Positions 6,449 to 64,000 of a stretch of DNA of 64,000 nucleotides are shown here, one piece after another. A model generated the notes under the pieces. The model was not told the DNA's origin. It searched no databases and saw only the letters and a list, made by a program, of their open reading frames with translations. Made by a program: the position numbers and the translations under genes. This DNA comes from Artemia franciscana (taxonomy: Eukaryota; Arthropoda; Branchiopoda; Anostraca; Artemiidae), in NCBI RefSeq assembly GCF_032884065.1, contig NC_088883.1:32800237-32864236 (forward strand). Direction: 5' to 3'. The first letter of the stretch is position 1. Each line of letters starts with the position of its first letter.

Positions 6449-7274
<826 letters not shown>

Positions 7275-9212
7275 TATGGCACTTTTTATTTACTAAGTGA
7301 CCTATAGTGGTCGCAAATTCTGTCAGTCTGTCGGTCTTTCTGTCCCGGTTTTGCTAGTTTAGGCACTTCCAGATAAGTTAGGAAGATGAGATTTGGCAGA
7401 CGTATCAGGGACTAGACCAGATTAAATTATAAATAGTCTTTTCAGCGATTTGACCATCAGGGAAGGGGGGAGTGGGGGAGACTGTTAATTCGGAAAAATT
7501 AGAAAAAAAGAGGTGTTTTTAACTTGCAAACGGGTGATCGGATCTTAATTAAATTTGATATTTAGAATGATATCGTATCTCTGAGCTCTTATTTTAAATC
7601 CTTATTGGATCCGGTGACGCTGGGGAGAGTTGGAGGGGGAAAACTAAAATCTTAGAAAACGCTTAGAGTGGAGGGATCGGGATGAAACTTGGTGGGAAAA
7701 TAAACACAAGTCCTAGATACGTGATTGACATAACCGGAATGGATTCGATCTCTTTGGAGGAGTTGTGGGGGAGGGTTAATTTTGAAAAATTAGAAAAATG
7801 AGGTATTTTTAACTTACGAAGGAGTGATCAGATCTTATGAAATTTCATATTTAGAAGGACCTCGTAACTCAGATCTCTTATTTTAAATCCCGACCGGTTC
7901 CAGTGTCATTGAGGGGATCTGGGGGGGACCGTAAAAAAATACCGAACGGATCCAGTGTTGTTGGGTCGGTTGGGGGGTCGGAAATCTTGGAAATAGAGAG
8001 ATCAGCTTAGAGTGGAGAGATCAGGATGAAACTTGGTGGGAAGAATAAACAAAAGTCTAAGATACGTGACTGACATAACCGGACCGGATCCGTTCTCTTT
8101 GGGGGAGTTGGGGGAGGGGGTAATTCGGAAAAATTAGACTTTCGAACTTACGAACGGGTGATCAGATCTTAATGAAATTTTATATTTAGAAGGATCTTGT
8201 GCTTTATAGCTCTTATTTTGAATCCTGACCAGATCTGGTGACACTGGGGGGAGTTGGAGGGGGAAACCGAAAATCTTGGAAAACGTGAAAATTGAGGTGT
8301 CTTTATCTTACGAATGGGTGATTGGATCATAATGAAACTTGATATATAGAAATATTTTATGTCTCAGATGCTCCATTTTCCATTCGAATCGGATCCGGGG
8401 ACATAGGGGTTGGAGGGGGAAACAGAAATCTTGGGAATTGGAAATCTTGGAAAAAGCTTAGAGTGGAGAGATCGGGATGAAACTTGATGGGAAGAATAAG
8501 AACAAGTTATGGTTACGTGATTGACATAATTGGAACGGATCTGTTCTCTTTGGGGGAGCTGGGGGGTGTTAATTTGGAAAATTAGAAAAATTGAGGTATT
8601 TTTAACTTAAGATCGGGTGACCAGTTCTTAATGAAATTTGATATTTAGAAAGAACTCATGTCTCAGAGCTCTTATTTCAAGTCCCGATCAGATCTGTTGA
8701 TATTGGGGGGAGTTTGAGGGGGAAACCGGAAATTTTGGAAAACGCTTAGAGTGGAGAGATCGGGATGAAACTTGGTGGGTAGAATTAGCAAATATCGTAG
8801 ATACCTGATTGACGTAATGAGATTGGATCCGCTCTCTTTGGGGGAGCTAGGGGGTGGTGGTCAGTGCTTTGGTGAGTTTGGTGCTTCTGGACGTGATAGG
8901 ACGATGAAAAACGGCAGGCGCGTCATGGAGCTTCACAAATTGACTTGATAAAATCGTTTTTCCCGATTCGACCATCTAGGGGGCTGAAGGGAGAGGAAGA
9001 ATTAGAAAAAATGAGGTATTTTGAACTTACGAGTGGGTGATCGGATCTTAATGAATTTCGATATTTAAAAGGACCTCGTGACTCATGACCGGCATTAAGC
9101 CTCTGATTTTCCTTTTAAATCAATCTATTAATTCTTAGAATTTCACTAGAGCTCATGCCATATGAGCTCTTTGCTGTTCCGGCCTCTTCACAAGTGCCAT
9201 ATGAGGAGCTCT

Positions 9213-9284
<72 letters not shown>
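7275..9284 (+). repeat. dispersed repeat family A (gatccg units), full-looking copy with T-run end
   Basis: The copy opens with a hairpin-like gcac...aagtgac segment and a ctgtcagtctgtcggtc segment. It then holds degenerate units containing tggagagatcgggatgaaac, gattgacataaccgga.cgg, gaggtatttttaacttacga and cttattttaaatcccgac. The 'gatgaaacttggtggg' mark recurs near 7680, 8020, 8473 and 8760, so units are about 290-450 bp. The other end carries two gagctc-rich blocks (about 9150-9215) and closes with a 68-nt T run (9217-9284). Inverted copies of the same family lie at 42030-43420, 45895-46885 and 62735-64000. No coding capacity is visible. Confidence 0.85.
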
Positions 9285-10318: not shown

Positions 10319-10322
10319 ATGT

Positions 10323-10389
10323 CGCTACACTAAAATGAAACTATCCTACCTCCAAATGGGCGTCGATTCAAACTATCCTACGTCCAAAA
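10323..10389 (+). repeat. left 67-bp terminal inverted repeat
   Basis: Contains two tandem copies of the iterated motif (aaactatcctacctccaaa, then aaactatcctacgtccaaaa). It pairs with 14799-14865. The flanking target duplication atgt is at 10319-10322. Confidence 0.9.
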
Positions 10390-10779
10390 CCGCTACTTTT
10401 CAGGAGAGCTATTTGAAGTTTTTAAGATTATTTTTCCAGTACTTCAAAAAGAGGTTTTAGGGGAACACCCGGACTGTAGAGTTTATTTCGTATTGGCTAT
10501 GTATTAGTGAAGATATTTTTGACCTACTTAGGTCAGAACGTCGAAAAAACTGGATATAGGATGGTAGTTATATTATCTACATCGGAACGAGACAATCCTA
10601 AGTCTAATTTTCGGACATAGGATAGTTACAGATCTGAGAAGCCCTGCTGAAGGAAGGCACAGTCAATCCTATGTCCGTATTATATCAAATATTTCACCAT
10701 ATATTATTTTAATCATATTCAAAGTATGACAAAATGAAAATTACTATTCGAAGTATCAAAAGAGAAAAATAAAACAAAG

Positions 10780-13700
10780 TTAATCAGAATCATCCGACTC
10801 CGCAGAACCTTCTTTTAAACAATCGAACGGAAGGTTTCTGAAAAACTGGTGATAAGCTTCAGGAATCAAATTTTTTTTACAAAGATCTTGAATATCGCGG
10901 TACACTCTTTCGCGAATTGGAACTGGACCAGAATACAGCTTTTGCAAATTGCACGACCCAGCTGACTTCTTCACTGAAGCTTTCCCCCTTCTTGACCTCC
11001 TGATTGTTTCAATCATCTTGATGTCTTTAGCTGCCCAGCTGGTCCGAACAATAATCATGTCAGGCAATGTGTAATCAACTTTCAACATTTGGATTTCTGT
11101 GAAGTTCACTTTAACCCCGTTAATATCGACGTTAAAATTATCACTGGTCTCTCTACATAGCATATCAAGATCATAGAAATCAGACATTCCCATTTCCTTT
11201 ACTTTGTAAGGACTCTTCAAACATGCACTTTTTGCAATCTGAAACCACTGAGAAGGCACATACACTGTTTGGTTCTTAGCAAATCTCTCGATGACAGCAC
11301 GGACCGAATCGTTTTGATTTTGCGTGTGCCCGGTTTCAATATACATGTGAGTAATTACTATCTTAAATTTACTGGCACAGTATAAATAAAGGGAAACAAG
11401 ATTCTTGTTCTTGTTTTGTCCTCCGCAATTATCACTTATGAAAACGAATTCTTTTGCTCCTTTTTCTACCTTACTCACAATAAAGCTGTAAACACAACTC
11501 CCGATTTCTGACGAGCCTCTTAGCAGTGCCTGCATGCCACATGTAGCAGTTTCCTTCGCGAGTATTGCAGTTATAGATACTGAGATTGTAACAGTCAAGT
11601 TTCGACTTATAGTAATAAGAAGAAACTTCTCCACGCGGACACTGTAGGACCTTTTGTAAGTCAAAGCACGCTATGATAATCCTTTCAGGGTCCAACTTTC
11701 CTCTCTCTTGTTCCTCTGCCATAAACTTTCTACTTTCTTCCTTGTTTCTGATGTGCTCACTGTGCTGTATAGTCAACTGTTCTTTCATCTGAGGGCTTGC
11801 ATTTTCCATCGCAACACACTTGTCACATTGGTCTTTTTTGGGACGGAAAAGCTGAGATCGAACTCATGCTGAAAAATCTCTTTGTATTTGTCGGATCTTG
11901 CAGCTTGTCTATTGTTTTCCAGGCACCACTCTCGATAAAGTCTATAAAGGTGAGCATGACTCTTGATCCCATCTTCCAAATAGGACTACTGAGATTTAGA
12001 TCTAGCTCTGCAGTAATGGCTTGGGGCTTTTTTCAAAAGTTTTATATGCTCCCTGCATGATTTAAGTTCTCTTATATTGGTGAATCTGCGGGATTCCTCT
12101 TTTCGACCTCTTTCATCCCTTTTCGAAGCTCCCGTACCAGGCACTTTTTTCTTCAACGCAGTTTTCACCATCTGTTCAGAAATTCCTAGCGTATTTACGA
12201 AAAACAGTCGACAGACTTTCTCAGGTTCCTCATTAATGCACAAGGAATACGCTATTGAAAACACCCTCCTCTCTGCTTTCTCAGTGTCATTGTTCTGTCC
12301 CTCTGTTCCTTCTTCATGATTATCATTATCGCTTTTATGTATCCTAGAATGTTTTTTTTTTGGCTTGACTAACTTGCTGAAGTATGTAGTCTCTTTGTCT
12401 ATTAATATCACCCAATTCCCAGTAAGACCTGAAAATGCTTATTTGAGTCTCTTCCGGAATTCTTTCATAACACTTCATCCTGCACTTACAAGGCCCTTTC
12501 ATAGTCCTTTCTGGCACAGTCTTTCCTTTGCTACTAATGTGTTTAATGCCACCATTCAACATCTTCTTTGCTATGTGTCTTTTCCAGCTGGAAGGTCTTC
12601 TCTTCCTCTTCTTTCCCTGGGCAGTAGGACTTCCTTCTGTTACACTAAGTTCACCAGCAGACGCACTGTCATTTTCCTCTACTCCACTAAGTTTATTAGC
12701 AGAGGTATTCCCATTCTCTTTTATTCCACTAAGTTCAAAAGCAGATGCAGCACCAGTAATGCCTAGCTCACAAAAGTTCTCGGATTCATCCTGAATGGTA
12801 GTTTCGCTTGCACCTAGGGCAGAATCGTTATGCACAGAAAGATCTGCTCTAGAGCCTTGCTCATTAATTTGAAAGAACACGTCAAGATTCAGAATAGGAG
12901 TGTCTGACACATGAGGAGTGTCAGGAATGCACTGCATCATTTCTAGGTCAAGACTAGTCTTTACCGTCAAATGTGAATCTGCACGGGTTTCATTCGTTTC
13001 AAACGACCTGCCAGCTTCTGTGGTCATGGCCCATAGCATTCTTCCCAACTCCCCTGAGTAAATTACTGAGGTTTCTGGGGGACTCAAATAATTTGCGTTA
13101 GAGTTGCAGTCAGATTTGTTGCCAGTAGTTGTTGTCACTGCCGAACCTGGAAAAAAAGAAATTGTTACGTCAATGTCATACATAAGTACTGTTTTTTAGG
13201 GCAGTCAAATCTTATGTTGAAGCCCCGATAACTGCAGCAGCAGTGAGTTAAATAAAATAAGCTTTTTATGTTGTTTAAATTGTTGCCAGATTTAAAGGTT
13301 GCCACGTTAGATGTTTAGAGAAAATCTGATGTCACTGAATCACAGATGTTGACAATACTGTATGGCTTTATGTTTACTATTTATATGCTCCAAATATTCA
13401 GCCTATTCAGTTCAGTTCACTTAATGCTACCAAACTCTATAAAATAAACGGGCAGTATCCAGGAAGTATAGAAGACTTATATCCAGGAAGTCTAGAAAAC
13501 TTGTAAACTACTAATGGACTTGTAAACCTATAAATCCTACTCTAAAAAAATATTTAGACTGAAGTTTTTACAGCTACAAGCAACAATCTCACTCTCTTTT
13601 ACAACATCCGAGCAATCATGGCTCATTTGAACCTATTAACGCCACTGTCCACCAGTAATACAGGTTGTCCGGCACATTTTAGTAGTCACATCGACCATTT

Positions 13701-14438
13701 CATATTCCCCACTGTAGAGCTAGTGAACAGGCAGAAGGGATGATGTTAAGTTTGACCTAAGAGATGGTGTGTAACCAGTAAGACTTTATCAGTATTAGTG
13801 GAAAGGTCAGATAATACTGTAATAGTAGATCAGATGTTGTAAAATCGAATCCCTCAGTTCTAGTGGGCACAGTGCCAGTAGTGGGTATAGCTCAGGGATG
13901 GCAGCAACCATACATTTAGGAACTCTACCCCAGTCTGCCACAAATCCCAGATTTTTGGATACTCTTTGCAAAACGTTGGATATACCCAGCATTTGGCATA
14001 GATACCATATGCCAGACGCTCGCCTATTCCTAACGCTGGATACCCTATGCCAAACAGTGGATATCTGTTGCCAATAAAGTATTGATGATGTGACTGAAGC
14101 TCAAAAATGAACCAATCAGATTTCACCCATAGTGAGATAGGTCAGGTTTAGAGTGCCAACAGGTATCCAACGTTTTGCATAGGGTATCCAAAAATCAGGG
14201 TTTGTGGTTGACTGATCTACCTAGGAATGAGCTGACGTGACTGGCCAGAGTCGCCAGAGGGGACCTGAAGAAATCCACAATATCTAAGGAAAGCACAATA
14301 CCTAAATGGTCTACTGTCTAATGTTATAATAACACTGAAAAGGCAAAAAAAGGGACAAGAATAAGAATCAGGCAATTTTCTCTTACCTTTCCTGACCTTC
14401 TCTCTAGCTAGTTCCATTAGCATTCTTCCTCTATTCAT
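10780..14438 (-). pseudogene. transposase-like gene of the TIR transposon (SDNCGGQNKN family), two exons, broken frame
   Basis: Exon 1 is 14438-14387, MNRGRMLMELAREKVRK, ending AAAG|GTAAGA. Exon 2 starts at 13146 after tttttttccag; both junctions are phase 1. The protein (about 800 codons) has an acidic N-terminal part with degenerate ELSG..EN.S repeats, a basic KKRKRRPSSWKRH stretch and a C.C..KC cluster. Then come FSVPKK(D)QCDKC, CFDLQKVLQCPRGE, CYMWHAG, FVFISDNCGGQNKNKN and GHTQNQNDSVRAVIE. The D of CFDLQ, the D of ISDNC and D/E of NDSVRAVIE are candidate catalytic residues of an RNase-H-like DDD/E fold. I recall this block as the DUF7869-type family of arthropod and fungal proteins. Breaks: an A10 run near 12352-12361, a TAG at about 11986, an A6 run near 11835-11842, and a shift near 11519. 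Two of the four lie in homopolymers, so some may be assembly errors. Confidence 0.82.
13930..14215. mobile_element. 286-bp MITE-like element nested in the transposase intron
   Basis: The left end at 13930-13982 (cagtctgccacaaatccc, then gatttttggata, then gcaaaacgttggata) is matched in inverse by the right end at about 14160-14215. tctacc stands on both sides (13924-13929 and 14216-14221) as a candidate 6-bp target duplication. There is no coding capacity. It sits inside intron 1 of the transposase-like gene, so it inserted after the host element. The class is not determined. Confidence 0.7.
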
Positions 14439-14798
14439 TTTGCAACTTCACCCTTCCTTTATAATTGCAAATTTTTACTATAAATATTGATGATGGTGAA
14501 GGCAAACGTTGCCATCAAACTATCCCATGTCCAAAAAGACGTATCGATACTTTAGAATGGCAATATCCTAAGTCCAAACAAACTATCCTATGTCCTGCAA
14601 CTCATCAAAATTTACTGCTTGAAACTAGCCCAAGTCCAAATAAGGACATAGAATAATTTCAAGGTGTGAGAAAAGCAAATTTGCAACATAATATAAGAAA
14701 GAAAAAGCCTTTCTAGGGGCGTAGGACCAATTCTGACTGCAAATTTGGATTCAGCACACAATTTAGCACTAGATAGATTGAAAATCGATTTTTTCCAT

Positions 14799-14865
14799 TT
14801 TTGGACATAGGATAGTTTGATTCGTAGCACATTTGGAGGTAGGATAGTTTCATTCCAATGTAGCG
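14799..14865 (-). repeat. right 67-bp terminal inverted repeat
   Basis: Inverted partner of 10323-10389 with about 8 mismatches. It carries the same two iterated motifs, and the target duplication atgt follows at 14866-14869. Confidence 0.9.
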
Positions 14866-14869
14866 ATGT

Positions 14870-15832
14870 GAACAATGCACAAATTACGTAATTTGCAACC
14901 CTTTTCCCAGGAACTGGGGAAAGGGCTGTAAGTTACAATGGTATCATCCCTAAAGGCACAGTTTTGTAGATAGGAACTTGAAATCTATATAGTTAAGTTC
15001 TCTGATAAGCTAAATTTAATGCCATGATTTTTATCAGAATCTCTTGACTTTTTTGAGGTGTTTTCTCCCTTTTTCAATAATCAGGAAATTATTCTCGTGC
15101 TTGTAATTTTAATAGGTAAGACTAAAATTCAAACTATATATATCTGGAATCAGCATTAAATTCCGATTCTTTTGTGCATCCAAGGTTGTCAGCATTTCTT
15201 TTTTTTTTAGTTTTTACAAGTATTGGGCTGAGTCACTCTCTACTTGCAGTTTGTTGCCACGAACTGTTTGATTAGGTACTCTGTTCCATTTGTTAATGCG
15301 GACAAAATAACTAAGTCAGTGGTGGTTGAATACGTCCAAAGTGCTCGCATCTTTAGTTTTTATTGGCTATGTCTCACAAGCATAGAACAGCATAACTTGG
15401 ACAATTGCGTTCAAAGCTCTGACTTTTTTTTATAAGGATCTCTAGCCTACTTCTTAGGTAGTTGCTTTTTTTTAGAGAGGAGTAAAGATTTCCCGAGCAT
15501 TTAGTGTGCGAGTATAAACTGACTTCTCAGTTCCATCAGCCGGTGTCTTAAGAAAGCCAAGACTTCTTAATTTCGTGGTGTTTATTATTGGCTCGGGTCC
15601 AAAATTGTTAGGATTTGATTAGTTGAGAGCCATTACTCAAGCTTTTTGGTCTCTGCTGGCCAGTTTGAAGTCTTGGAAGCACTTCAATCATTTAGTGCAT
15701 TTCCCCTACCTTATTTATGCCTTGTGGCAAGTTGACTAAAGTTAGTTCTGGTTCTTAGCCATATGTTTGCACTTTAGTCAAACAAAAATACTGCTTATTA
15801 TAATGACTTATTTCCTGATTGCTCTCTTGCAG
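14870..15832. other. non-coding sequence upstream of the Tudor exon
   Basis: Contains family-B dispersed-repeat fragments (for example ttgccacgaactgtttgatt near 15253). A pyrimidine-rich tract ending ctctcttgcag immediately precedes the exon at 15833. No other exon recognised. Confidence 0.5.
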
Positions 15833-16235
15833 ACGTTTTTAAAATCGCCGAATTATACAAGCAGCCTTGAGCAGATGCCGGTTAGTCAAATGTCTGCAAT
15901 GAAACCGTGTTTGGGTGCTGTTGGACCAAACTCACAATATCAGCGTTGTCTTATCCTTACAGAGCCGACAGAGCCTAAAGTTTACCTGAAATCTGTTGAC
16001 ACAGGGATCATGAGCTACGTGCCAATTGATAAAGTTATGCCAATACGCACAGAGACAGTGACAATTATGCCTGCTCAAGCCTTAAACTGCACACTTGATG
16101 GCTTTGAAGGGCGAAGTGTCCCAAAGTCGATTTTGGATGAATTTAAGTTTTTGGTGTCTGATAAACTGTTGAAGATGACAGTGTTGAAAATATGTGGAGA
16201 AAAGCTAGTCGTTAACCTGCTAGATTTGGAATCCG
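15833..16235 (+). CDS. Tudor-domain protein, one internal exon
   Basis: The exon is bounded by an acceptor (ctctcttgcag) and a donor (CCG|GTTAGT). It starts in phase 0, ends after the first base of a codon, and encodes 134 codons without a stop. The core has KPCLGAVGPNSQYQRCLIL, then VYLKSVDTGIMSYVPIDKV, which fits the Tudor barrel pattern (a small substrate-binding loop, V-x-x-x-D-x-G-x-x-x-x-V). It is followed by PAQALNCTLDGFEG and a long helix plus EKLVVNLLDLESG, the staphylococcal-nuclease-like flank of extended Tudor domains. Such proteins bind dimethyl-arginine on Piwi-type proteins in germ granules. That role is known for the family and not shown here. The open frame upstream of 15833 is intron. 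The rest of the gene was not identified with certainty; see the phase-compatible exon at 23631. Confidence 0.75.
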
Positions 16236-18989
16236 GTTAGTTTTCTGATTTGTTTCTTTTTCAGGCTTTTAATAATACGCTCTAAGCAACCAGTGACTGA
16301 AATAGATGGTTTTCTAGATTCTGATGGAAGCTAGAAAAAAATGTAAAAAAAAAACTTTTTTATGTCCGTTTGTAAAATGTTTTTTTTTTTCAATATTGTC
16401 TATTTTAAGCTGGTGTACTCCTTGAGCAAAATCATTAAATTTCTAATCCCATATTCATCATGCTCTAATGTTTTCAGCATTATTTGCAATCTGGTTTGAG
16501 TCTTTCCAGATTAGAAATTTACAACTCCCTAGTTTACTCCTATTTAGATTTTATTTACTTTCTTTTTTTATCCACTGTTTTGGAAAACTTCTTTACAGAA
16601 ATCGCCTTTTCTCAAATGATGTAATTTTGTCCTAAAATTACGCTCTTTGAGTTATGAGACATTTAATCCCTATTGAGGTGTCACCCTTTTAGGGAATAAA
16701 TGCTTCCCCAAAAATCTAGAGTCTTATGTCGATGCCGATTTTGATGTCTTCTTATTTTTTAATGCTTTTATTTTTATTGGGAATATTATTTGATTTTGGG
16801 GAATTTTAAAATTTTAAACTAATTATCATCGGACTGAATCGGAACCTATATTTATTTTTTTCTTATATATATAATTTTCTCTTGTTTAGTTGCTGATTTT
16901 TGGGTAAAATCTAAAATTTTTAGAAAAGGAAATGTTTCTAATTTAAAATAATAATACATGAAGTACTACTTGGAATTAAAAAGCAGAATAAAAAAAGTAT
17001 ATTTTTGTTTCTAATTTCATAACTAGATTTGATCTATGGCTCATAAGTAGGTTGTCTGTGAAATTATGAAATTGACATCTTGAATTTATTTTTATTTTTG
17101 TATTTATTATGACAGTTCTGCCTTAAATTTTTATTTTATCAAAGTTTGAGGCATTGGCACTTTTCCACGAAAGTTATTATTTTTTTTAATTTTTAGTAAG
17201 GTGAAAACACGTAGGTGACACCAATCAAAAATAAATGTTAAAATAATAGTATATTGATTTTTCAAAATTCGCTAGTTCTGGTAAAAAATCCACAAATTCT
17301 GGAATTAAAAACCAAAAATATTTTTCTGTTTATTTGTATCAGGAAAAACGATATTGTCAACAAACTTGATGAAATGGCAATTTTGATCTAAATCTAAAAC
17401 ACGACAATTAGGTTTATTTAAGTGGTCGATAATGCTCACTTAACGTTCTACTCCTAACGTCTCATCGCAGCACTAGGCCGCCTGAATGTCTTAGAAGATG
17501 TGCTTAATCCCTCCCTACTGCATTTTTTTCAGAACATCATTTTATGTTCCATCAATAGAAATTTTCACTTTCTCTAAATCTGTTCTTATAGCCCGCTCCC
17601 GTTTTTATGATGTCTAACTTTTATAGTTTGGTAGCAGTTGGATTTCTGAAACGCACCATTTTGGCAACCTCTTAAACTTCACTCGTGAAATGTGACCTAA
17701 CTGGCACAACATTTATTTTATTATTAATTACAAAAGAAGTGTTTTGAAGTTTTTCGAATAAAAATAAAGAACAGTATTCAAAACTTAAAATAAGCAGAAT
17801 TAAATTTTTTTTTATGTTAGACTTAAAATGATCAGAAATTGAAATGAATTATTAAGTCAAATGTACCACGAAGCGAAATTTATATGAATGAATAGATGAA
17901 GCCTAAAATGGAGAGAGATTAAAGTAAGTAATCAAGTTGAACCTAAAAACTTTTAAACCTTTTGGTCGTTTCACAGTGGTAAGAACAATTCAAGCTCTTT
18001 TAAATATGAAATTATCATTTGACGATTCCAAAAAGCTCAACAACAAGTCTAGTCTGTTTTATACAGTGCAAAACAGAAGGGAAAAGTTGGCCCAGAGCTT
18101 AACTATCAAGTCAACTGTCTTGTCAGCAAAGGCATCCTGCTAAAACTTGTCTAAGTGCTTTGTCACCTGTGGCATATGCGCTGGTGGACACTCCTCTGTC
18201 ATCATACCATATTTTTATCCTACTATCTTTTCATCCTACCTCTGCCCAGTCTATCCCCCCCCAAAAAAAAAAAATCCCCAAGAAACTATAATTTCTTTAA
18301 TCTTTGTGAAATGTAGGACATCCGTTCTTTATATTACTACCCTTTGGGTATTGTAAAACCTTAAGAGGGTTGTGGTCTTTTTGCATCATGAGGATATTTT
18401 CAAACACCGAATCTGTTATTTCTAGGTACACATACTGAGTGGGTTCGAAGCGGTTGATTCATAAATGCCAGGTTTCTGCCTCTTACCACTGAGTTTTAAG
18501 TTCTTTATTTAACAATAAATTTCATAAACAAAAAACTACTTCAACACAATCTCCCCCATAAGGCTCCATGGCCGGGAAAGAACAGAAAAAAAATACCAAC
18601 ACAAAAAAAAAAAAATTCAGTCGCCCACCTTAATAATCCCCAAAATGACAACCTAGGCAGGGTGTAGTGCATGATTTCATCAAATCAATTAAATATCCAA
18701 CTCAATTCAGAGATATCAACTCCAAGGGAAACTGGAAAAAACGTATTTACTAGATAGAAATTCCCTAACATAATTTGTGAACATACCAAACGAGTGGCAA
18801 CTTCGTGCAGACTCTGAGAGCGTGTTCCAGATTCTGTTGCAAGGTGTCAGATGGTTGAAGCCATACCCCAACCCTCTGTAAATAACGTCATGAATTGAAT
18901 GTAAATAATTCAAGAGAGTTACACATGCATGCTCAGTTGAATGCATCGCCCTAAAACCAAACTAAAAATCATGAAAAAAGTGTTTAGAA
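16236..18989. other. long A+T-rich stretch, probable intron or intergenic
   Basis: No coding segment recognised on either strand. Several A and T runs and short open frames without similarity. If the Tudor exon and the exon at 23631 belong together, this is intronic. Confidence 0.5.
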
Positions 18990-22460: not shown

Positions 22461-23630
22461 AAAAGTCATAAAATGAGCAATTAGTATTCTATTATTAATA
22501 CCTTCCCGGCCTAAACAAGACTTATCAGTCTTTTCACGGGAAGGGAGTTGTCAGTCTTACTCATGCGAGTCTGCTCGTTTTGAGTTCGACTAGGTAATAT
22601 ATTGAAATTTCTGTTCGTTTTGGGTTTTATTGATTTATCGACGGCGATTTGCGGTTATTTTACGCTTGGAAGATTGTTTGACTCAATTTTTGCACTATTT
22701 TGATTTAATAGAGCTCTTCACTTTTCTTTGAAAAACTAATTTAGTGGGAAAAGATTTTTTTTAATACATTTCTTTTCGTTTGTTATTAACATAGTCTTTA
22801 TCGTTGAGAAAGAAAATCATAATTTATATCTTTTCGGTTTTTTTCTATAAGAATCCTTAGTTGGCTTGCTATTTGTATATTGAAGGAATATATCCAACAA
22901 TTTTTAACAACTTACATCCTTTTGAAAATCTACACACAAGTAGTAGCCTATTGTTTAATATAGTTTTATACCTCTTCAAGTTGATTTCAGGAATAAAACA
23001 ATATCGTTCCCAAACAATCATCTCTGCTCGTTAAAAACCTGGATATGCTTACACTCATTATTTAGTTAAATTGTAAGAGCAGAAGTAGTGATAGTAGTAG
23101 CCCAGAAAATTTCAGCTTAATACCCTCAGTCATTTTTGTGATATTGTTGAGATGTCTCATTGGCAACCAGGATATACACAGTGTTTCATTTGATTTAGTT
23201 TTAAAGCATAATGGGCAACAGTAATTGTTGTAGGAAAAAACAAAAAAAAAATCTTAATTCTAGAATTTTCAGCTTGGGCTAGGGGTGGATCTAGAAAAAA
23301 AAATCTCAGAGGGGGGAGGCACCACACCACGGATGCCAATATGATTCAAGCGTAATGAAACATGGGAATGTAGATATCTCTTTCGTCAGACCAATTCGTT
23401 TGTGTGAATCTGGTCGGTGCTGATTAAAAATGACCAAGAAAACCTCTTTGAAAGCCAATACTGTTTTCCTATAGTAGTAAAATGCATATTAACAACAGAG
23501 TTGGGCGGATTTTTTGATGAATAAATTACTATGGCTTCATTGAGACTTTTTGAATGAGTAGGCCAGACTATTTTTTTTCCTTCAGAGCTTGATAAAAAAA
23601 TTAATTAATGTGGAAATCTCTTATTTCTAG
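22461..23630. other. non-coding sequence upstream of the heptad-repeat exon
   Basis: No exon or RNA gene recognised. About 23090-23220 resembles a dispersed repeat that also occurs near 37860 (ttaataccctcag followed by a ttgatttagtttaa segment). A pyrimidine tract ending ttatttctag precedes 23631. Confidence 0.5.
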
Positions 23631-24442
23631 ACAAGGACTTGTTTAAAGAAATCAAGGAAAGGTTCCAAATAGACAAGAAAAGCTTCGAAATAGACAAGGA
23701 AATGTTCAAAGAAGTCAGGGAAAGGTTCGAAAAAGACAAGAAAAGCTTTGAAATAGACAATGAAATGTTCGAAGAAGTCAGGAAAAGGTTCGAAATAGAC
23801 AAGGAAAGCTTTGAAATAGACAAGGAAATGTTCGAAGAGGTTAAGGAAAGGTTCGAAATAGACAAGGAAAGCTTTGAAATAGACAAGGAAATGTTCGAAG
23901 AGGTTAAAGAAAGGTTCGAAATAGACAAGGAAAGCTTTGAAATAGACAAGGAAATGTTCGAAGAGGTTAAGGAAAGGTTCGAAATAGACAATGAAAGCTT
24001 TGAAATAGACAAGGAAATGTTCGAAGAGGTTAAGGAAAGGTTCGAAATAGACAAGGAAATGTTCGAAGAAGACAAGGAAATGTTCGAAGAGGTTAAGGAA
24101 AGGTTCGAAGAGGTTAAGGAAAGGTTCCAAGTAGACATGAAAAGCTTCAAAATAGCCTACAAAATGTACGAAGCAGTCAAGGAAAGGTTCATAAAAGACG
24201 TGGAAAGCTTCGAAATAGCCTGCGAAATGTTCGAAGCAGTCGAGGAAAGGTTCATAAAAGACGTGGAAAGCTTCGAAATAGCCTGCGAAATGTTCGAAGC
24301 AGTCGAGGAAAGGTTCATAAAAGACGTGGAAAGCTTCGAAATAGCCTGCGTCGAAGCAGTCGTGGAAAGGTTCGAAACAGACGAGGAAAGATTTGAAATA
24401 GTCAAGGAAATGTTCGAACAGTCTAGGAAAGGTTCGAAATAG
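23631..24442 (+). CDS. terminal exon of a heptad-repeat (coiled-coil-like) protein
   Basis: The exon begins after a clear acceptor (ctcttatttctag), takes two bases to complete a codon, runs open for about 269 codons and ends at TAG 24440-24442. AATAAA follows 65 bp later. The protein is almost entirely 7-residue repeats grouped in threes, ERFEIDK / ESFEIDK / EMFEEVK, giving a 21-residue (63-bp) higher-order unit repeated about ten times. A second variant, KDVESFEIACEMFEAVEERF, is repeated near the C-terminus. Phe at a fixed heptad position with charged neighbours suggests a helical rod. Copy-number changes are all multiples of 3 bp, which argues for coding. Both antisense frames are also open because the repeat lacks stops; they lack splice and poly(A) signals. 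No homologue recognised. It could join the Tudor exon at 15833 by phase. Confidence 0.65.
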
Positions 24443-24506
24443 ACAAGAAAAGCTTTGAAGTGTGCTGAATGTTTTTGTATTTGCTGCACATTTAGTGGTT
24501 CGAGTT

Positions 24507-24512
24507 AATAAA
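24507..24512 (+). terminator. poly(A) signal AATAAA
   Basis: Canonical hexamer 65 bp after the stop of the heptad-repeat exon, in the same orientation. It supports that exon as the gene's last. Confidence 0.6.
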
Positions 24513-26114
24513 GTTTGATATACATTCAAGTTTCAGCTACTTCTCATTGGATTAGGCTTACATTTTCGTAAGATAGCCCCTCAAGAAGCTCGCTTTTTGG
24601 GAATACTCCGTGAGATTTTACACAACTATTTGTATCGGGATGGAGGGTAGTTTCCAATATGTACATTTAACTGGAGCTTTCATAAGGTTTCATTTCACAT
24701 TAGGCAGTAAATGAGTGTTTTATGCTAACGTTATACTTGCAATTTTTGTGTCGTGACCACTTTTTAAATGGGGCCATCATAGTTAACATTAAAAAAAAAA
24801 TTAATCGTAGTTAAGTAAAAAAAATTGCTGATTTAAAAAATTTAAATTCTCACGAGGCCCATCTATTTTATCTGAAATGGGAGGTCTGAAATGGGTGTTT
24901 TTTTTTCTGGCCCTAGTAGGTTTTGTGGTAATCAAAGAAAACACACTCTCTATTATGTAACATTTGCACAACTAAACAAACCCTTTTACATAAAAACAAA
25001 AGAATCCTGATTTGGCCAGCTCTTGAACGTTTTTCCCTGGCCCTCATGTTTTTTTTTAAGTAATTAACACATGTATCGTTTAGAAAGAACCCTCCTTATT
25101 ACGTAATTACTACCTGTATCGTTTAGAAAATATTCCCTATTACGTAGTAATCACCTGCATATTGTAGAAAAGATTCTCTATTACGTAACAGGCACCTGTG
25201 TCTTGTCCTTTGGGATCGCCGTTAAACCTCTTCGTCATCTTAAATCATTAAAGGAAGAAAAGAGTAGTGGGTATTGGTTTGCCTAAATCCCTAACCCCCT
25301 TACTAGTATCTTTGTAGAAAGGGCCTTGAAAACTCTGAAAAAGGAGTGTCTGATGTATTTAATTTAATCATGTAATTTTAATCAAAATCTTCAATCTACT
25401 TGGGACTCTGTTCTTTTTTGAAAATCAGAAAATTTTCGTTAGGCTATTAACTTTTCCAGGTATAAATTAACTTTAACGAATCGTACACATTTAGAATGAA
25501 CATGAGAAACTGATTCTTTTTATGCAGGAAAACTTTAAAGAGGAAAACTCTTTTTTTTTTAATTCTGGTTACTATTATCGTGAGTCGCTCGATCTCTGCA
25601 GTTTGTCACCACGAACTTTTTGAAAGTTCTCCTTTTACAACGAGGGTACGAGCTCCCCTCCTTAATGGGATAAGGTATGTTTGATTTAAGCTTTCAAGCT
25701 TTGATTATTATATTTGTTTTAATTTTATCTTTTTGACGCTATGTCTTACGAGTGTAAAATCTTTTTTATTTGAAAGTCTAAAGCAACTCATACACTCATC
25801 AGTGTATAGTTCATATAGTAATGTCGAGTTCACATTTAATCAGACCTTAGGGTATCAAAATATTTTTTTAAAAGAAGGGGCGTAAACAAATGGAAATTTA
25901 AATTTTTGTTAAAATTTTCAATATTTGGAGGGTCCTTTATTGCAATTACTATTGGAACTTTCCTTTACTCACCTATTTTCCTCCTCGTGAAACTGATTTT
26001 ATTCAGTGAACTTAATATGTGTTGATTTTTTCGTTTTTTATTCTTCATCAGTCTGATTTTTTTCATTGAACTTGTTGAGTGCTAATTTTCTTTATGGAAC
26101 TTCCTGATTTTTTT
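24513..26114. other. intergenic; short tandem and dispersed repeats, no gene
   Basis: A family-B fragment lies near 25575-25690 (ctgcagtttgtcaccacgaa). The rest is A+T-rich with no recognised coding content. Confidence 0.5.
25063..25205. repeat. ~55-bp tandem repeat, three degenerate copies
   Basis: The motif ctattacgta..aatcacctg, followed by tcgtttagaaaa, recurs near 25095, 25140 and 25185. The palindrome tacgta is kept in each copy. A fourth distant relative lies near 24950. Confidence 0.7.
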
Positions 26115-26362
26115 TGTTTTATCATCAGCATAAAAACCGCATAAAAATGCTAAAGATTTGCCAAAAATTATAAAAGACGAATTTATCAACTACGAGATAT
26201 TACTGGCAACATTTTAGTAAAACCATTCAAGACAAAATAAAAATTAAAATTTTGCCATTAAGATCGGATTTTTTGGACCCACTTTATTTTTTTAGTAGAG
26301 ACTAATCTAAATACAGAAAGACTCAAAATAAAAAATGACTTTAAAATTGTGATGATAAACAA
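26115..26362. mobile_element. ~248-bp MITE-like repeat, copy 1
   Basis: It begins ttgttttatcatca and ends tgatgataaacaa, giving 13-14-bp imperfect terminal inverted repeats. The body is about 90% alike, in opposite orientation, to 30968-31189. No coding capacity. Confidence 0.7.
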
Positions 26363-30967: not shown

Positions 30968-31189
30968 CAATTTTAAAGTCATTTTTTATTTTGAGTCTTT
31001 CTGTATTTAGATTAGTCTCTACTAAAAAATAAAGTGGGTCCAAGAAATCCGATCTTAATGGCAAAATTTAATTTTTATTTTGTCTTTAATGGTTTTACTA
31101 AAATATTGCCAGTAATATCTCGTTGTTGATAAATTCGTTTTCGATCATTTTTGGCAAATCTTAGCGTTTTTATGCTGATGATAAAACAA
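30968..31189. mobile_element. MITE-like repeat, copy 2 (inverted)
   Basis: Reverse complement of most of 26115-26362, from caattttaaagtc to tgatgataaaacaa. The terminal repeat on its left side is lost, so the copy is incomplete. Confidence 0.7.
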
Positions 31190-33195: not shown

Positions 33196-47154
<13,959 letters not shown>

Positions 47155-57547: not shown

Positions 57548-60500
57548 ATGAGAGCATTAAGCCAAATCCAGAAGAAGGCTATTGCAGCGTATCTTCTGAA
57601 TAAGCGAAGAAAGCAGGCAAGTTGTTGCTTTTAGGTTTACATAGGATATATAGCTAAAGTTGGGTCACCAGTTTTTTGGAGAATCCTGTATGACAGGGAT
57701 GACTGAAGCTGGAAAATAGAAATATTTCAGCTCTCGACAGTGGGGTCCACAAGTTTTTTTGGGTAACCACTCTCTTGACAGGCCATTATTCTAATGGTTG
57801 ATGGCCTATTCTTAAAATCTGGGTGATCTCTCTATGGACTGATGACCTAGTTTGGAATGTGGGTGATCAGTCTATAGAGTGATTGCCTATTCTCTAAATC
57901 CTCTCTATGGACTGATGCCCCAGGTTGGGTTATCAGCTCACAGAGAGGTCACCTAGTCCAGGCCACCAGTTCTTAGAGAGGTCACCTTAGATTTGGACAA
58001 TTGAAGGATGGGCTATCAGTCCCTGGCATTATTACCTATCAAAATAGTGGTCATCGAGAAAGTTTTCCTTCCAAAATAAAATTTTCCTAGACAGTAATTA
58101 TTTAATCCTCTATGGATTTTCCCTGGGCAGACGAATCATCCAAAGAACCTGGTGCACAACTGTTGGTAGATGGATAAGTCAGTTTAACAAGCAAGAGAGA
58201 AAAAAAGTGCAGCTATGATCTTAATTTGCTAATATTACTTGCTGTATGCACTTAGTACTGTACTTGCAATTTTCATAGTTTCTTGTTAATCTTCTTCTCA
58301 GTTCTTTTTTACCTTAATTTTTGTAATTTTCTTGTTTCTTTACCACTGCAATGGAATTCTATGAACCTGTTCTTTGTCTTTGTAATATGCCTTTACTGCA
58401 TTTTGGATATACCTGTCAGCTTCTCTTTGATACTGTACAATAGCATCCTTATTCAGATCAGGTTGCATGTAGCTTTTTCTAAATGTTAGCAAGTCACTTA
58501 TACCTTATGCTGTCTCTGCTAAAGCTGGGTCACCATTTTTTTTAGAATCTTGTATGACAGGGATGAATGAAGCTGGAAAATAGAAATATTTGTTCTAGAC
58601 AGTGGGGTCCACAAGTTTTTCTGGGTAACCGCTCATTTAACAGGTCATTATTTTAGGGATTGGTGGCTCATTCTTGGTCTGGGTGATCTCTCTATAAAGT
58701 GTTGACCTAGTCTGAAATATGGGTGATCAGTCTATAGAGTGATGGCCTATTTTCTAAATCTGGGTAACATCTCTATGGACTGATGACCCTGTCTGGGTTA
58801 TCAGTTCACAGAGAGGTCACCTAGAGCAGGCCATCAGCCCCTGGAATTATCACCTATCAAAAAAGTGGTCATCCAGAAAATTTTCTGGACCCAAATGGTT
58901 CTACAGACCTAAGAAAGTATTAACTTGATCAGTGACACCTCCCTGACCCTCTTATAGTTCAATAGAATAGGTAACAGGACTTACAGTTTTCTCGACAGAG
59001 ATATTCAAAGGTTTTCCTTCCAAAATCAGATTCTCCTAGACAGTAATTATTTACTCCTCTATGGGATTTCCCTGGGCAGAAGAATCCTCCAAAGAACCTG
59101 GTGCACAACTGTTGCAAAATGGATGTGTTAGTTTAACAAGCATGAGAGAAAAAAAAAGTGCAGCTATGATCTCATTAATTTGCTAATAGTACTTGCTGTA
59201 TGTACTTAGTACTGTACTTGCAATTTTCAAATTTTCTTTTTAATCTTCTTCTTAGTTCTTTATCTTAATTTTTGCAATTTTCTAGTTTCTTTACCACTCC
59301 AACGGTATACTATGAACCTGTTCCTGTAGGTTCTTGTTCTTTGTAATGTGCCTTTACTGCAATAGGGATATACTTGTAGGCTTCTCTTTGATACTCTACA
59401 ATAGCATCTTTATTTAGATCAGGTTGCATGTAGCTTTTTCTAAATGTATGCAAGTCTCTTAAGTCTTGAAAGTAAGTTACTGCTTTACATCCCGGTATAA
59501 ATCACTAAACAAAGCTGGGTACAGGCTACGCTAAATGTATGAAAGTCTCTTGAAAGTAAGTTACTGCTTTACATCCCGGTATAAATCACTAAACAAAGCT
59601 GGGTACAGGCTATGCTAAATGTATGAAAGTCTCTTAAGTCTTGAAAGTAAGTTACTGCTTTACATCTCGGTATAAATCACTAAACAAAGCTGGGTACAGG
59701 CTATGCTGCAAAAGGCTCATAATAACCTCATCTACAGAAAAACAGCTAAGAAAAATAATGGATTTAAAAAAAATTGTAGTTTGCCCTTTGCTATTTTGCA
59801 ACAATTATAAGTGTTTCCTGTTTCACTTTGCTTGTCAAGGGCTTGAAAATGTTCACTATCAAAGACCTATTCCAGCTTTCTTTTAATAGAGACCTATGTT
59901 TATATTCTTTGTTTCTTATAGGAGCAGCTATATGGAAGTGCAAAACAAGCTACACGGAGGTGGTGGGTCAGACCAGTCCTTAGAAAAAGAGAAACAGATG
60001 GTGCCTTCAGCAAATTGGTGCAGGATCTAGAAAAGGAAGATCCACAATGGTATTTCGAATACCTTAGAATGACTCCTACAAAATTCAAGGAACTCTTAGC
60101 AATTGTTAAAAGTAAGATTGAGAAGAAACATACCAATTGGAGGAGACCTATTTCAGCAGCTACGAGACTTGCACTGACGATCAGGCATCTTGCCACAGGA
60201 GAGTCAAAGAGGTCTTTGTCCTACCAGTATTTGATTGGCCGTTCGACAGTCACTCTTATAGTGGCAGAAACGACAGAGGCCATTTGGACTAGCATGAAAA
60301 GCCAATGTTTGAAGCCACCAACCCAATCCACGTTCCAGACAATCGCTGACAAGTTTCTGAGGCGGTGGGACTTTCCAAATTGCATAGGAGCAATTGATGG
60401 AAAATATATCAGGTTGAGATGCCCAGAAAACAGTGGCTCTACGTATTTCTGCCACAAGAGATTCTTTAGTGTTGTACTGATGGCAGTTGTTGATGCTGAC

Positions 60501-61133
60501 TATAAGTTTCAGTTTGTAGACGTTGGAGCAGAGGGTAGTGCTGGTGACTCAAGTATATTTGCCAGGTCATCGTTTGGGTGTGCCATTCTGAACGGAACAA
60601 TTGAAACTCCTGAGCCTAAGCCCATCCCTAATGGGACCATCTTACCACATTTTTTCGTAGCTGACGAGGCATTCCCCTTGAAAATGAACATAATGAGACC
60701 ATTTCCAGGTGGCTTGAGTGTAGCTGACAGGCAGAAAAGGGTCTACAATTACCGTTTGTCTCGAACTCACTTGGTTGTAGAAAACGCATTTGGAATCTTA
60801 GCTGCACGCTGGCGTATTTTTTACTCACCTATTAATTGCAAACTTGAAACAGTTGATTCAATAGTCAAAGCTTGCTGTTGCTTGCATAATTTCGTAATGA
60901 ACGAGAACTCGCAGTATTGTCCAATTAACTTCGTAGATGCCCAGAGTGGAAACAGGGAGATTATCCCTGGAGCCTGGAGAACCATGGTCTCTGATAACTG
61001 GCTTCAGCGGCAGCAACGTCAGGGAGCAAACAATTTCGCAGTTACTCCCATGACAATAAGGACGAAATTTCTGGAATACTTCAATTCAGGGCAGGGCGCC
61101 CTACCATGGCAGGAAGAGTACCTGTTTGGATAA
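57548..61133 (+). CDS. PIF/Harbinger transposase (HARBI1-like nuclease), two exons, intact frame
   Basis: Exon 1 is 57548-57616 (MRALSQIQKKAIAAYLLNKR...), ending AAGCAG|GCAAGT, a GC-AG intron. Exon 2 is 59922-61133, after gtttcttatag, in frame. Together they give about 426 residues. QATRRWWVRPVLRKRETDGA, then YFEYLRMTPTKFKELL, form the usual N-terminal part. The DDE_Tnp_4 nuclease core shows CIGAIDGKYIRL (first D), VDVGAEGSAGDSSIF (second D), a PFPGG-type loop (FPLKMNIMRPFPGG) and VVENAFGILAARWRIF (E). Length and all conserved blocks equal those of full-length Harbinger transposases, with no stop or shift. The enzyme would cut and paste its element together with a DNA-binding partner. A convergent BESS-type gene at 61786 fits that partner. 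The start is the first ATG of the frame. Confidence 0.93.
57650..59470. repeat. ~900-bp tandem duplication in the transposase intron
   Basis: The copies at about 57652-58508 and 58515-59460 share gctgggtcaccattttttt, gacagtggggtccacaagtt, ggtgatcagtctatagagtg, aagaacctggtgcacaactg and ttagtactgtacttgcaatt in the same order. Identity is about 85-90%. Within each copy a shorter 'gggtgatc.ctctat.gactg' theme is iterated. Confidence 0.88.
59467..59706. repeat. ~84-92-bp tandem repeat, three near-identical copies
   Basis: gaaagtaagttactgcttta, then ggtataaatcactaaacaaa and gctgggtacaggctacgcta, recurs from about 59467, 59551 and 59642. Differences are single bases and an 8-bp indel (aagtcttg). 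Confidence 0.95.
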
Positions 61134-62181: not shown

Positions 62182-62734
62182 CTTAAAAAAGTAAAATTAC
62201 ATCCAAATGACCTATTTACCGATTAAGCTGATAACCGTTTATCAGTCTGCTCTTAACTGTTCATGTTTGTCTTTAAAGTGGCAAAAAATGCAGTAGTACA
62301 GCAGACGCTAGCAAAAACATAAGACATAAAAAATACTTGAAAAAGATAAAGGCTTTCAATGACACAGCCACAAATACATTTAACTAATCCTGAAGTTTTT
62401 AGCCCCATTGATAATATCATTACGCGGTGTTGGAACGCGTGATATAATATTCCTTGTAGCATCAACAATCCCAAGAGAAGAAAGATCAATGGTATATTAA
62501 TGAGTTTCAGGCCTTCAGTTTTGTAAATATATTCATCCTTCCATATATTCTGGATGCCTTCTTGCGGTTTCCATTGTTCTGCTCGTAGTTAACTACTATC
62601 CAGAATGGGAATATTGTGTAATTGAATATAGCGGGTGAACTGGCAGTCAGAATTGAATTAAAATTGGACCAAAGATGTGTAATGGCCCATGGTCCAAATC
62701 AAGTTGTAGGATGAAGACCCTAGCTCAAACAAGA
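62182..62734. other. non-coding, no exon recognised
   Basis: Expected place of the MADF-domain exon. None is visible on the minus strand. Confidence 0.45.
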
Positions 62735-64000
62735 GCTAAGAGCTCACATGGCACTTGTGACGAAGCAAGAAGAGCTACAAGCTAAGAGCTCATTTGGTAT
62801 GAGCTATAACAAAATTCTAAGAATCAATAGATTGATTTATAAGGAAAATTAGAGGCTTAGTACCGGTCAGGATTTAAAATAAGAGCCCTGAGTCATAAAG
62901 TCCTTCAAAATATCAAAATTCATTAAGATCCGATCACCCACTCGTAAGTTATAAATACATAATTTTTCCTCTCCCTTTAGCCCCCCAGATGGTCGAATAG
63001 GGGAAAACGACATCATCGAGTCAATTTGTTCAGCTCCCTGACACGCCTACCAATTTTCATTATCCTACCACGTCCAGAAGCACCAAACTCCCCAAATCAC
63101 TAAACCCCCCCCCAACTCCCCCAAAGAGAGCAAATCCAGTACGGTTATGTCAATCACGTATCAAAGACATTTGCTTATTCTATCCACCAAGCTTCCTCAT
63201 GATTCCTCCACTCCAAGTGTTTTAGTGTTTTCTAAGACCCCCCCCCGCCCCAACTTCTCCCAATTTCAAAAGATCTGGTCAGGATTTGAAATAAGAGCTC
63301 TGAAACATGAAATCCTTCTAAATATCAAACTTCATTAAGATCCGATCACCTATTTGTAAGACAAAAATAACCCAATTTACACGTTTTCCAAGAATTCCGG
63401 TTTCCCCCTCGAACTCCCCCGAATGTCACAGGATCTGGTCGGAATTTAAAATTAGAGCTTTAAAGGACCAGATCCTTCTAAATATTAAATTTCACTAAGA
63501 TCTGGTCACCTTTTTGTAAGTTAGAAATACTTCAATTTTCAAAATTATCCCCCCCCAACTCCACCAAAGAGAGCAGATCCGGTCTGGTTATGTCACTCAT
63601 GTATCTTAGACAGGTTTTTATTCTTCCCATCCAGTTTCATCCTGATCTCTCTGCTTAAAAGTATTTTCTAAGATTTCTGCCCCCCCCCCAATGACGCTGG
63701 ATCCGGTTGAGATTTAAAATAAGAGATCTGAGTTACGAGGTCCTCCTAAATATGAAGTTTCATGAAGATCCGATCACTCCTTTGTAAGTTAAAAATACGT
63801 CATTTGATCTAATTTTTCATAATTATCCCCCCCCCATAGAGCGGGTCCGTTCCAATTATGTAAATCACGTATCTAAGACTTCTGCTTATTTTTCCTAACA
63901 ATTTTTATCCCAATCCCTCCAATCTAAGCGTCTTCCATGATTTTAGGTTCCCCCAACTCCAACCTCCCTCCAATGTCACCAGATCCGGTCGGGATTTAAA
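62735..64000 (-). repeat. dispersed repeat family A, inverted copy, cut by the window end
   Basis: It begins with agagctaagagctcacatgg and cacttgtgac, then the ccaatttccattatcc-like block and about four units with agatccggt, catcctgatctctc and caaatttcattaagatc, plus C runs. It shares unit order with 42030-43420. Confidence 0.85.

Follow-up and report, generated by a model that had tools for sequence, protein, structure and literature searches.

The stretch of Artemia franciscana DNA analysed here (the window, 64,000 nucleotides, 35.2% G+C, no N) raises the question of what kind of mobile element lies at its positions 10323–14865, where inverted repeats enclose a gene whose protein family is probably widespread in arthropods. 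The locus holds a real, decayed transposon with terminal inverted repeats (TIRs), which probably encoded a DDD transposase, most likely of the Sola type. We consider it reasonably likely that these 4,543 bp are the decayed remains of a cut-and-paste DNA transposon closest in type to the Sola superfamily, and the family claim stands on this one element.

The ends of the element and its surroundings

A TIR transposon with 67-bp inverted repeats, identical at about 59 of 67 positions, and with an exact 4-bp target duplication (atgt) had been described in an earlier note on this DNA, and both features were recovered. The inverted repeats were found as a BLAST pair when the element was compared with the window (E 1.66e-16) and as a pair of 68 nt (88%) by an ungapped repeat finder, and ATGT lies directly outside both ends (Table 1). 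When the boundaries were shifted by −3 to +3, exact repeats other than ATGT were only 2 bp long. With the ends fixed, a 4-bp match arises by chance in 1 in 256 cases, which makes ATGT supporting evidence for the ends, short of proof. There is good support for a TIR transposon that has kept its two ends and a 4-bp duplication, and the terminal motif arrays described below add to it. The same note had called the element structurally complete, which holds for the ends and does not hold for the gene, whose main exon is interrupted. The repeats may also once have reached further inward, longer and decayed TIRs past 67 bp being suggested by the local alignment beyond them (score 38, null mean 25, with 5 of 500 shuffles reaching 38). 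A second copy of the element was not found within the 64-kb window (blastn, E up to 0.01).

Table 1. Features of the transposon, in window coordinates from the left to the right end
Feature	Positions	Strand	Basis or remark
ATGT, left copy of target duplication	10319–10322		exact match to 14866–14869; abuts left end
Left TIR, 67 bp, begins CGCTACA	10323–10389	+	59/67 identical to right TIR
Left array, 6 copies of AACTATCCTAYGTCCAAA (≤5 mismatches), two within TIR	10339–10679	both	motif scan
Putative coding piece for the C terminus, containing SDNCGGQNKN and NDSVRAVIE	10780–11534	−	within open frame 10780–11670; frame-change limit placed by eye
Putative coding piece, different frame, containing CDKC, HSEH and CFDLQ	11535–11837	−	within open frame 11471–11863
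Putative coding pieces sharing the frame of the C-terminal one, in-frame stop near 11987	11838–12353	−	open frames 11785–11985 and 11986–12438
Putative start of exon 2, ending in C-rich GPCKCRMKC and NRQRDYI	12354–13146	−	open frame 12344–13195
Putative intron, 1,240 bp; GT donor 14386–14385, AG acceptor 13148–13147	13147–14386	−	from sequence and frames
Putative exon 1 with start codon (MNRGRMLMELAREKVRK)	14387–14438	−	from sequence and frames; phase matches exon 2
Right array, 7 copies of the 18-bp motif (≤5 mismatches), two within TIR	14518–14849		motif scan
Right TIR, 67 bp	14799–14865	−	59/67 identical to left TIR
ATGT, right copy of target duplication	14866–14869		exact match to 10319–10322; abuts right end

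Several other features were observed in the window. Just downstream of the transposon there is an open frame of 164 aa (15746–16240) with a match to the Tudor domain (E 1.2e-7). Among the matches listed, related and partly inverted repeats that are 73–87% alike occur at 7273–9224, 42038–43423, 45979–46841 and 62727–64000. A tandem array at 23605–24532, whose repeat unit is about 63 bp, keeps frames open on both strands and has only weak Pfam matches, and an inverted pair of about 210 bp (26139–26349 and 30968–31175) is 94% identical.

The encoded protein

The motifs CFDLQ, ISDNCGGQNKN and NDSVRAVIE, already pointed out in the earlier note, are indeed encoded, on the minus strand. They were examined in P0001, i.e., the C-terminal 360 residues of the protein, read across the third of the frame changes discussed below. 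Its acidic residues D68 (CFDLQ), D144 (SDNCGGQ), and D185 and E192 (NDSVRAVIE) are spaced as D-75-D-40-D or as D-75-D-47-E. Both spacings lie within the range of DDD/DDE transposases, and a transposase of this type is a plausible reading of the residues. Before the first D there are CxxC (CDKC) and HxxH (HSEH) motifs, and GPCKCRMKC further upstream; a zinc site here would be a guess. We infer an RNase-H fold for the encoded protein. A single-sequence model of P0001 (mean pLDDT 33.4, with only 4 of the 360 residues reaching 50) was too poor to speak for or against this fold; at residues 59–72 it places a helix, where a strand is expected at the first D.

The DUF7869 profile (PF25273), with which a comparison had been proposed, gave a match to P0001, though a weak one in a decayed sequence (E 3.1e-4, 20.8 bits, below the curated Pfam cut-off of 26). 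The match covers residues 107–224 of P0001 and positions 27–147 of the 192 in the profile, and the 296-residue piece without the read-through gave 20.1 bits in Pfam. DUF7869 is a domain of unknown function, the profile title states no function, and we know of no description of it as a transposase. No transposase profile in Pfam or NCBIfam was matched by the protein, the NCBIfam scan giving no match at all up to E 1. The Pfam scan recovered its positive control, a Harbinger transposase elsewhere in the window: the open frame at 59922–61133 (403 aa) matched DDE_Tnp_4 over the full profile (E 6.5e-29) and apparently encodes an unbroken transposase of the PIF/Harbinger type. Pfam matches to ODC_AZ (E 0.039 and 0.05) and, on a 66-residue piece, to Pox_D5 (E 0.0077) and DUF4478 (E 0.098) were below the cut-off and were dismissed.

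Relatives were sought in several collections. None were found in phages, in plasmids or, either by protein or by an SDNCGGQ-type pattern, in viral contigs; in prokaryote contigs the pattern gave none, and the protein search yielded one stretch that matched a pattern, with none confirmed. Since animal genomes are scarce or missing in these collections, the absence of relatives from them says little. A looser NDSVRAVIE pattern picked out five viral contigs, all of which were treated as chance because the best tblastn match of P0001 had an E of 4.5. In the PDB, P0001 had no match by sequence and the 296-residue piece had one, with an E of 1.2.

These results bear on the reading that the element represents a cut-and-paste lineage outside the listed DDD/E superfamilies, which would use the same mechanism with DUF7869-like proteins as its transposases and would not be Sola. 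In its favour, none of the transposase profiles of Pfam or NCBIfam fits the protein, while the Harbinger protein of the window is recognised by Pfam, and the running text of the papers searched contains neither the term “DUF7869” nor any of six SDNCGGQNKN-type strings. However, we know of no Sola profile in Pfam or NCBIfam, so that the silence of the profiles does not speak against Sola, and the ends, the size and the duplication each fit Sola as well; we therefore regard a separate lineage as doubtful. The same tentative standing is given to its general form, in which proteins with a DUF7869 core would be the transposases of a DDD superfamily apart from the roughly 20 listed, with 18-bp motif arrays reaching to about 350 bp and 4-bp duplications. 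What the locus contributes here is that a protein of the DUF7869-like type sits between transposon ends with a duplication, which makes the proposition that such proteins are transposases testable. Since the broken gene weakly resembles DUF7869, the domain may belong to jumping genes, and if DUF7869-core proteins are transposases of a distinct superfamily, a domain of unknown function would gain a function.

Signatures of other superfamilies

The possibility that the element is a divergent member of a known DDD/E superfamily other than Sola was weighed by its diagnostic motifs and ends. According to excerpts of two papers, C/DxxH between the second and the last acidic residue is the signature of hAT, P, MuDR, Kolobok and Dada (PMC9587614), and C(2)C with H(3-4)H in the same interval is that of EnSpm, Mirage, Chapaev and Transib (PMC12730594). 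Neither motif is present in residues 145–192 of P0001, which, as far as a decayed sequence can show, disfavours hAT, P, MuDR, Dada, EnSpm, Mirage, Chapaev and Transib. Kolobok and piggyBac, of the DDD/E type, also duplicate 4 bp (PMC9587614, in excerpt), but theirs is TTAA whereas the element has ATGT, which disfavours both, and Kolobok is disfavoured as well by the missing C/DxxH. Ginger, for which an excerpt of PMC10741241 gives duplications of 4–6 bp and TIRs of 40–270 bp, overlaps with the element in both lengths; its ends, however, are TG...CA and those of the element CG...CG, and the protein matched no integrase profile up to E 10 (Pfam), whereas Ginger has a Gypsy-like integrase, so that Ginger too is disfavoured. 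In favour of such a member, decay may have erased the signature motifs, and the motif tests left out several superfamilies, e.g., Academ, Zator, IS3EU and Zisupton. Set against the two absent signatures, the ends, the missing integrase match and a duplication other than TTAA, this makes membership in another known superfamily improbable, and a Sola-type element remains the preferred reading.

The gene and its interruptions

The gene had been described as having two exons, and part of that description stands: exon 1 is credible, with an ATG at 14438 (minus strand) that opens 17 codons up to the GT donor, as are the donor itself and the AG acceptor. The main exon, by contrast, is not intact: its frame changes three times, near 12354, near 11836 and near 11535, and it contains one in-frame stop (near 11987). 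CFDLQ is encoded in a different frame from SDNCGGQNKN and NDSVRAVIE. These positions, like the exon–intron model, were placed by eye from the sequence and its frames. With these interruptions the element looks like a decayed copy that, as assembled, encodes no full-length transposase, and a two-exon gene would hold at best for its ancestor.

An assembly or sequencing origin of the interruptions, with a gene that is intact in the organism, is decidedly improbable. Two of the three frame changes, those near 12354 and 11836, do fall at A runs (of 10 and 6 letters), but the third has no long run beside it and a stop codon in frame is no indel, both of which favour decay; the TIRs, moreover, differ at 8 of 67 positions, although natural TIRs may be imperfect. 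That the interruptions are further small introns of a working gene with more than two exons is hardly credible, for although both exon models, the earlier one and ours, were drawn from sequence alone, overlapping frames meet without a gap at the frame changes, so that an intron would not fit at the two A runs. Decay remains the likeliest explanation of the broken gene.

Within the putative intron there is a nested element of about 285 bp (13930–14215) with inverted ends (52 aligned positions, 88%) that resembles a non-autonomous transposon. Which duplication it made is ambiguous, in that TCTACC fits and chance alternatives fit too.

Terminal motif arrays and a possible mechanism

The earlier note did not include a feature that strengthens the transposon reading, namely arrays of a short motif at both termini. 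The 18-bp word AACTATCCTAYGTCCAAA was taken by eye from the repeats of the element itself and scanned for with up to 5 mismatches, which gave 25 matches in the window, 13 inside the element and 12 in the 59 kb outside it; in ten 64-kb random sequences of first order, the number of matches ranged from 6 to 17. Because the word was derived from the element, finding it there does not count as separate evidence. Its confinement to the ends does carry information: all 13 copies are no more than 360 bp from one end or the other, and the 3.8 kb between the two arrays is free of the motif. With 3 mismatches or fewer, 9 copies were found in the element and none elsewhere in the window. Measured from the left end, the copies stand at 16, 48, 226, 268, 287 and 339, and from the right end at 16, 48, 207, 225, 267, 287 and 330. 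The orientation is mirrored between the ends at 16, 48, 226/225 and 287; the mirroring is only partial, as the 268/267 pair and the outermost pair do not follow it.

Arrays of this kind are the usual look of transposase-binding sites, and the copies of the motif are accordingly named as candidate binding sites for the transposase. In the proposed mechanism, the lineage would once have been active, with a DDD/DDE transposase of about 800 residues (a length taken from the exon model). This protein would bind the 18-bp motif clustered at both ends, bring the two ends together and cut at the CGCTACA termini; the ends would then be joined to a target cut with a stagger of 4 bp, and repair of this stagger would produce the ATGT duplication. 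We infer both the motif binding and the cut-and-paste chemistry.

Comparison with Sola

According to an excerpt of PMC10741241, Sola elements have DDD transposases and 4-bp duplications, are for the most part between 2 and 9 kb long, and carry TIRs of 11–1124 bp with highly variable ends; within the RNase-H-like superfamily, part of PMC3985635 assigns Sola to one clade. The element lies within the ranges of 2–9 kb and 11–1124 bp, which is a weak test of Sola. Its terminal motif arrays are absent from the excerpted description of Sola in PMC10741241. Should the protein family already be classed under Sola, the locus would be one further decayed copy of a known kind. With Sola (Sola1, Sola2 and Sola3) as described in that excerpt, the element shares the DDD positions, a 4-bp duplication (ATGT), a size of 4,543 bp and a 67-bp TIR, and by this comparison of descriptions, with its loose published traits, it would be a relative of Sola.
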